Of a DNA stretch of 64,000 nucleotides, positions 21,538 to 25,516 are shown piece after piece (positions within the stretch are counted from its first letter, which is position 1; the number at the start of each line of letters is the position of its first letter). The notes under the pieces were generated by a model. The model had not been told where the DNA came from. It saw only the letters and a list, made by a program, of their open reading frames with translations, and did no database searches. Made by a program: the position numbers and the translations under genes. This DNA is from Pirellulaceae bacterium. Lineage in GTDB: Bacteria > Planctomycetota > Planctomycetia > Pirellulales > Pirellulaceae. The stretch lies in contig JAQWSU010000006.1 of the NCBI GenBank assembly GCA_029243025.1, positions 124,001 through 188,000 of the forward strand, in the 5' to 3' direction.

Positions 21538-22929
21538 TCACCGAACCGTTTCGTCTAAGGCTGCCGTCGCATCATGGTCAAATTCTTCTTGGGGAAGATC
21601 CAGGAATCGAATGCTACTGGTCAAGGCAAGATCTTCGCCGCCAAATTGCTCGACATCCGTCGCACCCATCGTAAAAACGCAAGAAACTCGACGACCATCC
21701 GTGTGAGTCACATGATAGTAAATCCACAAGATGGGTGCCTGATCGACAGTCCCCGCCGCAACCACCCGGAGTATCTTCTGCCCTTTTTTGTTCGTCGATT
21801 TTTTGGCATCAACAATCTGTGTCACTGAATCACCCAAAACCATGCTGATATCTTGCTGAAACTTATGCATCGTCAGCGGCTTTTTCTTGCTGACCGGTGG
21901 CAAGGCGCTGATGTTACATTGGGCCAGCATGCGGCCATCGTCCACACATCGAAACACCGTAATCGTCGGACTCTCGGAAAAAACGTGCCAGCGGCGGTTA
22001 TGAAGGACCGCATAACCAGCCTCATCGTTGACATGCTCAAGCAAGCCGCCTTGAACGCCATGCCGCAGATCGAAAGCTGCGATGGCCTGATCATGGAGAT
22101 GTTTCGGCTGCTTAACAGGTCCGCGCACCATTCGCAGACGGGCCTTAACGTTGAGACCTGGCGTTGAGGCACCAATTTCGCGCTGTTCCTCAATCGTGAT
22201 CGCAACCCAGTTGATCAAAGCAGATTGAACATCGAAGTTGTACTTGCCCGTGAGTTTGACCTCGGTGACAACTCCTTTGACGGTGCCGATTATACTCCCC
22301 TCAAGGGTCATATAAGCGGTGCCATCCTCAAGCTTTACCAGCTCGCTTTGTACAGCGTTGACGGTCACCGCATCCAGATTGAAAAGTAGAGCCAACAGGG
22401 TGTCGTCATGCTTCCACGTGTCGTTCAGCTCCTGTTCGGATTGAGGCAGCAGCCGTTCGATCAAACTACTCAAACCCGGAAATTCAATCAGTTCCAGTTC
22501 CTGTCGGCTGAGTGCGCCCGTTGGACAAACAAACATATCTTCGAGTTCGTTCGGATCGACCACGATCCATCGTGACGCGTCCCGCAGCTGCGAAGAATTG
22601 CCGCGACCATCCACCTGGAAATCGGATTTGGCCTCCTCGAAGTAGCGAACACTCCGGCCCGTCTGTTGATCGAGCACTCGTTCCTCGTAGAGAAAATTAC
22701 CAATCGCCTTCAACGGATGTTCTTTTGGCTTGTTCTTCCCGCCACGCTGGGAAAAAAGCCGGCCAGACACTTCGTAAGCAACTTTCACCTGTCGAGTTCC
22801 CCTCGCCGCTGACGGCGTAAGGTCAACGCTATCTGGCGCTGCCTGAAGGGAAACGCTCGAAAGGAGTACCAACCCGCCAATAACTCGGGAAAGATACGAA
22901 CACAAAGTTCTGGAAAATCTATGAAACAT
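21538..22929 (-). CDS. Secreted protein of unknown function
   Basis: A 463-residue product with a signal peptide ending near residue 31 (VSLQAAP). The mature chain is rich in beta strands and has no motif I can name. It starts at ATG 22929 with a strong GGAGGTGG 5 nt upstream. Composition and architecture fit the many secreted proteins peculiar to planctomycetes. It is divergent from the sigma factor gene across a 535-bp gap that holds an inverted repeat. Confidence 0.65.
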   Translation of the reverse strand: MFHRFSRTLCSYLSRVIGGLVLLSSVSLQAAPDSVDLTPSAARGTRQVKVAYEVSGRLFSQRGGKNKPKEHPLKAIGNFLYEERVLDQQTGRSVRYFEEAKSDFQVDGRGNSSQLRDASRWIVVDPNELEDMFVCPTGALSRQELELIEFPGLSSLIERLLPQSEQELNDTWKHDDTLLALLFNLDAVTVNAVQSELVKLEDGTAYMTLEGSIIGTVKGVVTEVKLTGKYNFDVQSALINWVAITIEEQREIGASTPGLNVKARLRMVRGPVKQPKHLHDQAIAAFDLRHGVQGGLLEHVNDEAGYAVLHNRRWHVFSESPTITVFRCVDDGRMLAQCNISALPPVSKKKPLTMHKFQQDISMVLGDSVTQIVDAKKSTNKKGQKILRVVAAGTVDQAPILWIYYHVTHTDGRRVSCVFTMGATDVEQFGGEDLALTSSIRFLDLPQEEFDHDATAALDETVR

Positions 22930-23464
22930 CAGTCCACCTCCGGGCCGTCTGGGCGTTTTCGTTCCTCATAGAGATAGATCGACTGACCCGTGGGGCGAAC
23001 TTTGGCGTCAAGTGTCCAATACATGCGCGTCAGTTATCTTCGTCGACATCCGCGAAACGAGGGTTGGGTTGACTCTGGGGATCCGCTTGCTACGGAATAA
23101 TCCGACCACCCAAAAAAGAACCTAAGTCATTACTAAAAAATGACTTAACGAGTGCTGTCCCAAATCGATTCGGGCAAAACCGCGAACATTCCCCGATCAT
23201 TTGCGACTGTTTGCACGTAAACCGCTATAAAGAAGTTGTTATCGGAAATCACTTGGCTCTTGACCATTTGTTTTGCAAGATTCGCAGGCTTTTCGGCAAC
23301 TTGGATACACTCGACTGCAACATTCGGCCTCATTGGACGAATAGCTGGTCGGGACGAGCGGCTTGGGGAACAACCGCCAGTCCATTTTTCGGATTATTTG
23401 TCGGGCGATGGGAATCGCATGGAACACCGACTCGAATCCGCAAACGGAGAGAACGAGGTGGGTG
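22930..23464. other. 535-bp divergent intergenic region
   Basis: The region separates the minus-strand secreted protein gene from the plus-strand sigma factor gene. Short frames here have no support. It should hold both promoters, though I could not pick a convincing -35/-10 pair. The clearest element is the inverted repeat at 23123-23147. A long leader for the sigma factor transcript is possible. Confidence 0.5.
23123..23147. promoter_or_regulatory. 9-bp inverted repeat in the sigma factor upstream region
   Basis: The arms taagtcatt (23123-23131) and aatgactta (23139-23147) are perfect inverted repeats with a 7-nt A-rich spacer. There is no T run beyond, so it is not a standard terminator. 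It could be an operator controlling either divergent gene. Confidence 0.4.
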
Positions 23465-25129
23465 ATGCATTCGGAATATCGAAATCAAATCCTGAAGCAA
23501 TTGCGCGATCAACAGGTCCGGTACGCACCGCGCGATAAGAAGCTGGAGCAGGTCAGCAATGCTGAGGCCCTTCTCCACGAGGTTTCTGGGGACAAAACCT
23601 ATCCCTACGAATTCCTCTGCTATCGTATCACGGGCTATCGTCCCGAATCGTCCCCACATTTGACCGTGGCAGGCGAAGAGCTCGGACACGACTTGAGACT
23701 CTTCATCGAAGATGTCTCGGACGCTGCGGATGTGAACGTTCAAGAAGCGGGACAACCCGTCTATACGGTCGAAGATTTGAGCAAGCTGTTCAACGTTTCC
23801 ACCAAGACAATCTCGCGATGGCGTCAACAAGGGTTGGTCAGTCGTCGCTTTTTGTTCAACGGTCGTAAACGAGTCGGTTTTTTGCAGCAGAGCGTTGATC
23901 GGTTCGTCACCAACAATCGCGAGCGAGTGAAACGGGGAGAACGCTTCAGTCAATTGACGAGTCAGGAGCGTGGCGAGATTGTTCAGCGGGCACGACGACT
24001 CGCCAGAGCCGGTGGAACACCTTCCGAAGTCACCCGTCGCATCGCGAAACAGATGAATCGGAGTATCGAAACAATTCGCTACACGCTGAAACATTTCGAC
24101 AGCAAGCACCCTGAACTGGCAATTTTCCCCGATCGCACGGGGCCACTCACGGTGGAAGCAAAGGAAGCGATTTATCGTCAGTACCGTCGCGGCACCACCG
24201 TTGACGAGCTGGCCAAACGCCACTGCCGTACCAAGACCAGCATTTACCGAGTGGTCAACGAGATGCGGGCCGAGCGGATCATGGAGCTCCCACTCGATTT
24301 CATCGGTAACGAATGCTTTGAACAACGTCATGCGGAAAAAGTCATCCTGACACCGATGCCTGAGAGTGACAAAAAGGCACGAGCGGCTCGCTCGCCAAGT
24401 GGTTTACCTCCTTACCTGGCGTCCCTGTATGACGTCCCGCTGCTGAATCGAGAGCAAGAAGGACATCTATTCAGAAAACTTAACTTCCTCAAGTTCAAGG
24501 CAGCTCAACTGCGAGAATCGATTGACTTGGTCAACGCAAAGAGCACGGTCATGGACGAAATCGAAAAGCTGTATGACCAGGCGGTCGACGTGAAAAACCA
24601 GATCGTGCAAGCGAACCTGCGGCTGGTCGTTTCGATTGCCAAGCGACACGTAACCCAATCCGAGGAGTTTTTCGGGCTGGTCAGTGATGGAAACATGTCC
24701 CTGATTCGTGCCGCGGAAAAGTTCGACTACGCTCGAGGCAACAAGTTCAGCACCTACGCCAGTTGGGCCATTATGAAGAACTTTGCTCGCACAATCCCGC
24801 AGGAATTCAAGCAGCGTGATCGATTCCGCACCAGTAGCGAAGAAATGTTCGTTTCCACGGAAGATTTCCGAAAGGGCCTCTACGAGCAAGAGAGTGCTCA
24901 ACAGTTACGTGAGTCCCAAGTGGACCAAATCCTGTCGAGTCTTGATGATCGTGAACAAAAGATCATCATCAGCCGATTTGGCTTGGACCACAAAAATGAG
25001 CCTCAAACCCTCAAAGAGGTCGGAGCTCAAATGGGTGTCACAAAGGAGCGAATTCGTCAGATCGAAGCCAGAGCCCTCACCAAGCTCCGCTTGGCGGCTC
25101 AGGAGGAAAAGATCGAAATTCCCGAGTAA
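23465..25129 (+). CDS. Sigma-70 family factor with N-terminal helix-turn-helix extension
   Basis: A 554-residue sigma factor whose C-terminal half is a normal core. It has region 1.2-like residues 313-345, region 2 at 371-447 (NLRLVVSIAKRH, DGNMSLIRAAEKFDY, GNKFSTYASWAI) and region 4 at 486-545 (LDDREQKIIISRFGL, GVTKERIRQIEARAL). Region 3 is reduced. The first 310 residues replace region 1.1 and hold an excisionase/MerR-like helix-turn-helix (99-145, YTVEDLSKLFNVSTKTISRW) plus two further helix-turn-helix-like units (about 163-212, 228-270). ATG 23465 is preceded by GAGGTGGG. It may be the primary or an alternative sigma factor. Confidence 0.88.
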   Translation: MHSEYRNQILKQLRDQQVRYAPRDKKLEQVSNAEALLHEVSGDKTYPYEFLCYRITGYRPESSPHLTVAGEELGHDLRLFIEDVSDAADVNVQEAGQPVYTVEDLSKLFNVSTKTISRWRQQGLVSRRFLFNGRKRVGFLQQSVDRFVTNNRERVKRGERFSQLTSQERGEIVQRARRLARAGGTPSEVTRRIAKQMNRSIETIRYTLKHFDSKHPELAIFPDRTGPLTVEAKEAIYRQYRRGTTVDELAKRHCRTKTSIYRVVNEMRAERIMELPLDFIGNECFEQRHAEKVILTPMPESDKKARAARSPSGLPPYLASLYDVPLLNREQEGHLFRKLNFLKFKAAQLRESIDLVNAKSTVMDEIEKLYDQAVDVKNQIVQANLRLVVSIAKRHVTQSEEFFGLVSDGNMSLIRAAEKFDYARGNKFSTYASWAIMKNFARTIPQEFKQRDRFRTSSEEMFVSTEDFRKGLYEQESAQQLRESQVDQILSSLDDREQKIIISRFGLDHKNEPQTLKEVGAQMGVTKERIRQIEARALTKLRLAAQEEKIEIPE

Positions 25130-25166
25130 CTGACACAAGGGCCGACAACAACCGGTCGATGATGAG

Positions 25167-25198
25167 AGGCGTTCGTGGATTCACGGACGCCTTTTTTT
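25167..25198 (+). terminator. Rho-independent terminator of the sigma factor gene
   Basis: The stem ggcgttcgtg / cacggacgcc (one G-U pair, plus an outer A-T) closes a gatt loop and is followed by seven T residues. It begins 38 bp after the sigma factor stop and separates that gene from the tRNA/tuf operon. Confidence 0.9.
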
Positions 25199-25220
25199 GC
25201 CCATGCGAGCCGTCGACGAG

Positions 25221-25253
25221 CCACCGCAAACCCACCGCAAACCCACCGCAAAC
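25221..25253. repeat. 11-bp tandem repeat, three copies
   Basis: Three perfect copies of ccaccgcaaac lie between the sigma factor terminator and the tRNA promoter. They are non-coding. No function is evident. Confidence 0.75.
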
Positions 25254-25386
25254 CACGATCCGCACAATCCACCAAGCCTCGCCATTCCCAAAGAACACAC
25301 CCAGCCACCAAGGGGCTCCAAAAATCATTTTGCGAACTTCCACAGTTGGGCTAGCGGAACACGCCATGATTTTCTACTATTCCGTA

Positions 25387-25414
25387 TTGCACCGTGCGCC
25401 AAGGTCAGTATAGT
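25387..25414 (+). promoter_or_regulatory. Promoter of the tRNA-tuf operon
   Basis: TTGCAC (25387-25392), a 16-nt spacer and TATAGT (25409-25414) form a near-consensus sigma-70 promoter. Transcription would begin near 25421, about 23 nt before the first tRNA. The position fits a strong growth-linked promoter for the tRNA and tuf genes. Confidence 0.65.
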
Positions 25415-25443
25415 GACTGGTTTTCATGGAACTTGAACTCAGC

Positions 25444-25516
25444 GCTAGCGTAGCTCAATTGGCAGAGCAGCTGATTTGTAATCAGCAGGTTGTGGGTTCA
25501 AGTCCCTCCGCTAGCT
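25444..25516 (+). tRNA. tRNA-Thr (anticodon TGT)
   Basis: A 73-nt cloverleaf. The acceptor arms gctagcg and cgctagc pair perfectly, and the anticodon stem ctgat/atcag encloses a TGT anticodon. The T arm loop reads gttcaag. The 3' CCA is not encoded. It is the first of four clustered tRNAs ahead of tuf. Confidence 0.96.

Follow-up and report, generated by a model that had tools for sequence, protein, structure and literature searches.

The locus at positions 23465..25129 (+ strand) of the 64,000-nt stretch analysed here (the window) raises the question of whether one protein chain can serve at once as sigma factor and activator, since in bacteria the choice of promoter usually falls to a sigma factor together with activators that are proteins of their own. 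The open reading frame encodes 554 amino acids, and the initial annotation read the product as sigma regions 2 and 4 behind a long N-terminal extension, a description borne out by Pfam matches over cut-off to Sigma70_r2 and Sigma70_r4. Among the best 80 of 531 named loci, 77 encode proteins that match all 554 residues end to end at 59–88% identity, giving an alignment of 78 rows with the window protein; the loci left out are two whose match runs off a contig end (L101, L104) and one with a stop after 289 aa (L108). Most of these relatives bear the title Planctomycetota or Pirellulales, and four just 'bacterium', which would place the window in Pirellulales. A hairpin followed by a T run downstream of the gene (25164..25195, + strand; −22 kcal/mol, z −5.87) is a likely terminator and is absent from the listing of the consensus scan.

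Domain 2 (regions 2.1–2.3, residues 373–446, 24581..24802, + strand) matches Sigma70_r2 at 6.2e-13 and 48.8 bits (cut-off 24) over residues 380–438, covering profile positions 1–59 of 71, and an RpoD-like domain 4 (residues 481–547, 24905..25105, + strand) matches Sigma70_r4 at 1.6e-18 and 66.4 bits (cut-off 24.1) over residues 490–542. Both profiles are found in 26 of 26 family members at E up to 0.01. While these two regions had been read correctly, region 1.2 (residues 311–340, 24395..24484, + strand) had been overlooked; it is recovered in a profile match to SigA and HrdB chains, and 14 of its 30 residues are invariant across the 78 rows. Against the PDB, the family profile fits SigA, HrdB and RpoD chains best (E 3e-45, over 294–450 and 481–546), and nothing among those chains matched between 450 and 481. 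Region 3 had been called reduced, but next to the three RpoD-like sigma proteins of the same genome (L111–L113) domain 3 is absent outright and the end of region 2.4 is gone as well, their place being taken by a linker of ∼34 residues (447–480, 24803..24904, + strand) in which residues 447–468 have an AlphaFold2 pLDDT under 50. The absence of region 1.1 holds up, in that neither a region 1.1 nor a region 3 family is among the Pfam matches listed for the window protein (25 of 28 families).

The protein thus shares region 1.2, regions 2.1–2.3 and domain 4 with the RpoD/SigA proteins of groups 1 and 2 and differs from them in having no region 1.1 match, no domain 3, no end of region 2.4 and three added helix-turn-helix (HTH) units. 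It differs also in region 2.3, where L111–L113 read WW and the HTH-bearing family reads WA (W434 in 24 and A435 in 25 of 26 phylum-wide rows), and this pair and the residues that follow it presumably point towards the −10 element at its upstream edge. The RpoD equivalog TIGR02393 scores 141 bits against a cut-off of 354 (NCBIfam), and the domain 3 expected of an RpoD (group 1) protein is lacking. We infer that core RNA polymerase would be joined via domains 2 and 4.

The first part of the protein, residues 1–96 (23465..23752, + strand), is modelled by AlphaFold2 as a small alpha/beta domain of net charge −6. The first HTH unit (HTH1, residues 97–160, 23753..23944, + strand, charge +10) is winged, with helices at 102–109 and 113–121, strands at 127–131 and 134–140 and a further helix at 141–150. 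In Pfam its residues 100–122 match HTH_23 (3.2e-6) and HTH_28 (6.3e-6) over cut-off, and residues 99–151 match HTH_17 at 2.1e-5 with 25.2 bits, below the cut-off of 27. Its structural matches in VIA include 7lwr (Z 7.0), the Xis protein 4j2n (Z 6.3) and BldC 6ama (Z 6.2, rmsd 2.6 over 54 residues), a range of Z that may reflect merely a common arrangement. A likeness to the winged HTHs of MerR, BldC and excisionases extends through the family, in which HTH_17 is matched in 23 of 26 members (E up to 0.01); HTH1 differs from those proteins in being fused to a sigma factor. At the same threshold HTH_23 is matched in 24 members and HTH_29 in 21. The second unit (HTH2, residues 161–216, 23945..24112, + strand, net charge +7) has helices at 166–181, 186–197 and 201–214, and its assignment rests on these AlphaFold2 helices because Pfam gives nothing above cut-off there (FliG_M, 0.0013). 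The third (HTH3, residues 226–275, 24140..24289, + strand, net charge +4) matches HTH_29 (1.7e-6) and HTH_38 (3.1e-6) over cut-off at residues 228–272; the two three-helix units are modelled as spanning 166–214 and 230–274.

The full-protein model has a mean pLDDT of 84.5 and a pTM of 0.50 (78 rows), and the mutual placement of the domains is not fixed at this pTM, nor at the 0.62 obtained for residues 1–300 alone (mean pLDDT 88.2; 68 of the 78 rows). These residues were modelled and searched separately because the 50 listed VIA rows for the whole model spanned about 309–554. The separate model gave no Foldseek match at E up to 0.001, VIA matches of Z 6.0–7.0 mostly to single HTH units, and no known fold for residues 1–96 in either search. 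A further candidate, HTH2–HTH3 as a copy of sigma domains 3–4, was rejected: VIA pairs residues 163–283 at Z about 6.2, with an rmsd of about 20 over about 105 residues. The claim of three HTH units N-terminal to the sigma core had been tied beforehand to a structural test, namely whether the N-terminal part folds into HTHs; AlphaFold2 predicts all three folds, and the claim stands. By these models the window protein is a sigma-70-family member carrying three predicted HTH units before its sigma core.

Conservation within the module is uneven. Mean identity to the window protein over 77 rows is 75% for HTH1, 65% for HTH2 and 59% for HTH3, with 84% for domain 2 and 74% for domain 4, which makes HTH1 about as conserved as domain 4. 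Residues of the recognition helices are kept across the 26 phylum-wide rows, both in HTH1 (K114 in 24; T115, R118 and R120 in 25 each) and farther along (E202, R205 and R262 in 24 each). Against L031, dN/dS is 0.043 for residues 1–96 and 0.016 for residues 97–160, rough values given a dS above 2.6; these two parts alone were computable, synonymous sites being saturated elsewhere. It might be supposed from its place in the chain that the module is mainly autoinhibitory or signal-sensing, with the role of a region 1.1 or a fused anti-sigma domain, and keeps domains 2 and 4 covered until it is displaced by a ligand, a protein or a DNA site. The module does occupy the position of RpoD's region 1.1, residues 1–96 are acidic and free of HTHs, and N-terminal extensions control ECF factors, planctomycetes included, according to the accessible part of a review (PMC8103513). 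However, three basic HTHs with kept recognition-helix residues would be unexpected of a pure mask; a double role is compatible with the HTH evidence, and we consider masking as the main function unlikely, if well worth entertaining.

That similar proteins may exist across planctomycetes had been conjectured, and searches covering the phylum Planctomycetota agree. The whole-protein query matches 51 of 294 phylum genomes at E up to 1e-30, among them its own and 20 others of the class, and many of the matches outside the class span the sigma part only. A search with the N-terminal module alone finds it in 88 of 392 phylum genomes, of which 40 belong to the class (the window's own included) and 48 do not, a class count to be read knowing that class members may also sit among 284 unlisted misses. 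In a class-only draw the module is present in 145 of 148 genomes and 90 of 91 genera, one of these genomes (G499, 81% complete) matching over HTH3 only; the class genomes without a match are G480 (99% complete), G493 (92%) and G495 (68%). Because the module is matched in nearly the whole of this draw, and usually once per genome, the window protein is, on the evidence of genome sequences, a conserved core regulator of the class. Exceptions to the single copy are fragments in G344 and G473 and extra partial matches in G471, G487 and G491, which where listed lie over HTH3 in shorter frames. Among plasmids, none of 192 matching records covers 80% of the query, and two unannotated matches (L257, L258) are RpoD proteins with domain 3; 13 pattern matches on viral contigs include no relative of the N-terminal module. 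The surroundings are partly conserved, with tuf downstream in 37 of the 80 named loci within the flanking DNA examined and tRNA genes of the same cluster as in the window at 29 of 41 loci scanned; neither occurs at loci with long flanks such as L045, L070 and L105, and at many others the flanking DNA is short. A divergent gene (21538–22929, − strand) that encodes a 463-aa protein is often kept beside the sigma gene, and its product has no Pfam match.

Among its kin are shorter sigma proteins of 243–376 aa in phylum genomes, of which 19 were read (L114, L150–L167). Like the window protein they have region 1.2, an MNYLKYRA-like segment and domains 2 and 4 with domain 3 absent; unlike it they are missing HTH1 and HTH2, and L114 has no leader RNA match of the kind described below. 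A tree of 51 proteins, from which L006, L009 and L016 were left out and which carries a long-branch warning and no ECF reference set, places the short and HTH-bearing forms together against three RpoD-like proteins and one group-2-like protein (100/98). Since the HTH-bearing and short forms each take two changes on this tree, gain or loss of the module may have happened repeatedly, unless the tree is distorted by long branches. A likeness to MzaA, the sigma-like protein of the MZA defence system, is confined to the sigma domains: the score of 157 bits against the NCBIfam equivalog NF041931 is far below its cut-off of 800, the PADLOC match is 7.8e-33, and the HTH module is not common to both.

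There is reason to think, with about an even chance of being right, that the protein is an alternative sigma-70-family factor whose tethered HTH module adds promoter selectivity now that domain 3 is gone. Chiefly by means of HTH1 and HTH2, the module would hold the holoenzyme at particular DNA sites and compensate for the promoter contacts lost along with domain 3 and region 2.4, so that one chain would be sigma factor and cis-acting activator. Counting for this reading are the module fold, the class-wide spread, the conservation of HTH1, the basic charges and the loss of domain 3, together with the leader covariation, the promoter motif and the CsrA-family genes taken up below. Against it, the short paralogues lack HTH1, HTH2 and domain 3 alike, which means that the short clade manages without the module as a stand-in for domain 3; the pTM values are low, no regulon emerged from the motif searches, and the window's own gene is without the promoter found before its orthologues.

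Of 76 upstream regions from Pirellulales (76 of the 78 alignment rows had enough upstream DNA), 48 contain that promoter motif, GAAC-N16/17-CGT[AC], with a mean of 1.5 and a maximum of 4 in 50 shuffles. Around 77 loci (−4 to +5 kb), 44 of 62 matches to GAAC-N16/17-CGTA lie within 400 nt upstream of the sigma start on its strand, and with gaps of 15–18 allowed the motif is found at 15 of 21 class loci and one of nine others. Genes for short paralogues, RpoD-like and other sigma factors are preceded by it in four of 24 cases, with a looser gap. Upstream of the window's own sigma gene there is no GAAC-N16/17-CGT promoter; a GCGAAC ... CGTA arrangement with 28 bases between GAAC and CGTA (23182..23219, + strand) is a possible degenerate or different promoter element. 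It overlaps a conserved block, GCGCGAAC(T)T, which lies at 23182–23187 in the window and some 319 nt ahead of the orthologues, and which 50 of the 76 upstream regions share. No TTGACA/TATAAT-type site was found within 22900–25450. A regulon search with GAACTTTTN{12,13}CGTC in 29 class genomes returned 104 matches, whereas the reversed control gave 43; of 20 inspected, 14 fell within open frames 450 nt or more in length, with no common target. AAC and CGT boxes and positive autoregulation are ECF features in the accessible part of PMC8103513. The ECF-like promoter of the orthologues might be driven by the protein itself or by an ECF factor; the RpoD-like domain 4 disfavours autoregulation.

Closer to the gene, a motif finder recovered, in 47 of the 76 upstream regions, a block that sits about 63 nt ahead of the start codon. 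In the window it corresponds to a putative structured leader RNA of 40 nt (23396..23435, + strand; model match 50.9 bits) that ends 29 nt before the start codon; its outer stem encloses a hairpin, and a bulge carries ANGGA. Across 17 sequences that align without gaps, the structure has a 9-bp outer stem, a 5-bp hairpin and an 8-nt bulge, and 84.5% of cells are paired against 32–48% with slid partners, a control biased in favour of the structure because it was derived from the same 17 sequences. The set contains 35 double-changed cells against 13.6 in shuffles (none of 500 as high) and eight pairs changed on both sides against 6.9 (156 of 500 as high), so that the latter count is not above shuffles. 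Over 36 covariance-model matches, of which 17 are the model builders and all are fitted to the model, 87.7% of cells are paired against 33–49%, with 71 double changes against 22.4. The z-scores of folding energy are weak, at −1.39 for the element in the window and between +0.11 and −2.40 for eight longer pieces, RNAalifold found no pairs in a first, poorly aligned set of 35, and the case for the leader RNA rests on covariation. The 19 non-builder matches end 19–58 nt before the start codon, and, judged by eye, the majority of them but not every one adopts the bulged hairpin when folded singly.

The element appears specific to this gene. The 8.35-Mb genome holds one significant match (E 1.2e-10; next 2.84, with 150 of 4235 candidates scored), and among 81 sources, namely the window and 80 named loci, 36 have a match with E no higher than 1 (31 of them no higher than 0.01), one in each of the 36 and always on the sigma strand. 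Among 33 other sources an in-place match occurs for L003 only, a same-family orthologue (E 3.7e-6); three others of the same family or order (L002, L004, L007) have no match in place. Rfam gave no match up to E 10 in 22900–23520. ANGGA is found in the bulge of every one of the 17 rows, and most loops read GGGA; we take the ANGGA bulge and GGA loop to resemble CsrA sites. The window's genome has eight CsrA-family genes over cut-off, a high number for one genome. This would be a so far undescribed leader RNA dedicated to the sigma gene, and a candidate target of a CsrA-family protein, for which the bulge and loop are candidate sites. Synthesis of the sigma factor would probably be set at two points: the ECF-like GAAC/CGT promoter, for the majority of the Pirellulales orthologues examined, and the leader RNA.

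These upstream elements could also be read as the module's only DNA targets, such that it would bind for autoregulation alone and sigma activity elsewhere would be independent of it. Conserved blocks do lie upstream of the sigma gene, and a wider regulon was not found in the motif searches. However, the most prominent of these blocks forms an RNA structure, and its outer stem varies in sequence as a protein operator would not, while a sigma factor would need no HTHs to read the other block, an ECF-type promoter; we therefore hold autoregulation alone to be improbable. We also think it improbable that the protein is simply a group 4 (ECF) factor extended at its N terminus. Domains 2 and 4 joined by a linker of ∼34 residues, below the 50 of the ECF layout and with domain 3 absent, and the AAC/CGT-type promoter ahead of most of the Pirellulales orthologues examined are ECF features (accessible part of PMC8103513), but region 1.2 is kept, HTHs are present besides, and domains 2 and 4 fit RpoD/SigA-type profiles and chains best. 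For the ECF factors, among them planctomycete ones with N-terminal extensions (ECF87–89 of an older scheme), the comparison covered domains 2 and 4, the linker and the promoter type.

Planctomycete ECF factors are mentioned in the accessible parts of PMC8103513 and PMC8999054, the former stating that those with N-terminal extensions have had no experimental study so far. A search for planctomycete sigma factors with HTHs or N-terminal extensions, with most subscription papers outside it, found no published description of the window protein in the texts accessible. In Rhodopirellula baltica the 567-aa sigma factor RB12251 is repressed by heat, cold and salt and is listed next to ribosomal protein genes among the repressed genes (PMC2754498, as far as accessible); its length would make it a candidate member of the HTH-bearing family, although RpoD-like proteins are similarly long. 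Among essential genes of Planctopirus limnophila, the housekeeping sigma factor alone is named in the accessible part of PMC10632474.

Returning to the reading of a sigma factor with a tethered activator module, its fullest form has a class-wide core sigma factor that gave up domain 3 and part of its −10 reading surface, reads DNA via three HTHs as sigma factor and activator in one chain, and has its synthesis set by a dedicated, undescribed leader RNA; we hold this form tentatively, at somewhat less than an even chance. A second element, open to testing independently of the protein, is the leader RNA, which is gene-specific and bears GGA motifs in a genome with eight CsrA-family genes. If the reading is true, the protein would be a natural merger of the sigma and activator roles, kept in nearly all class genomes sampled, and would offer a direct handle on planctomycete gene regulation.
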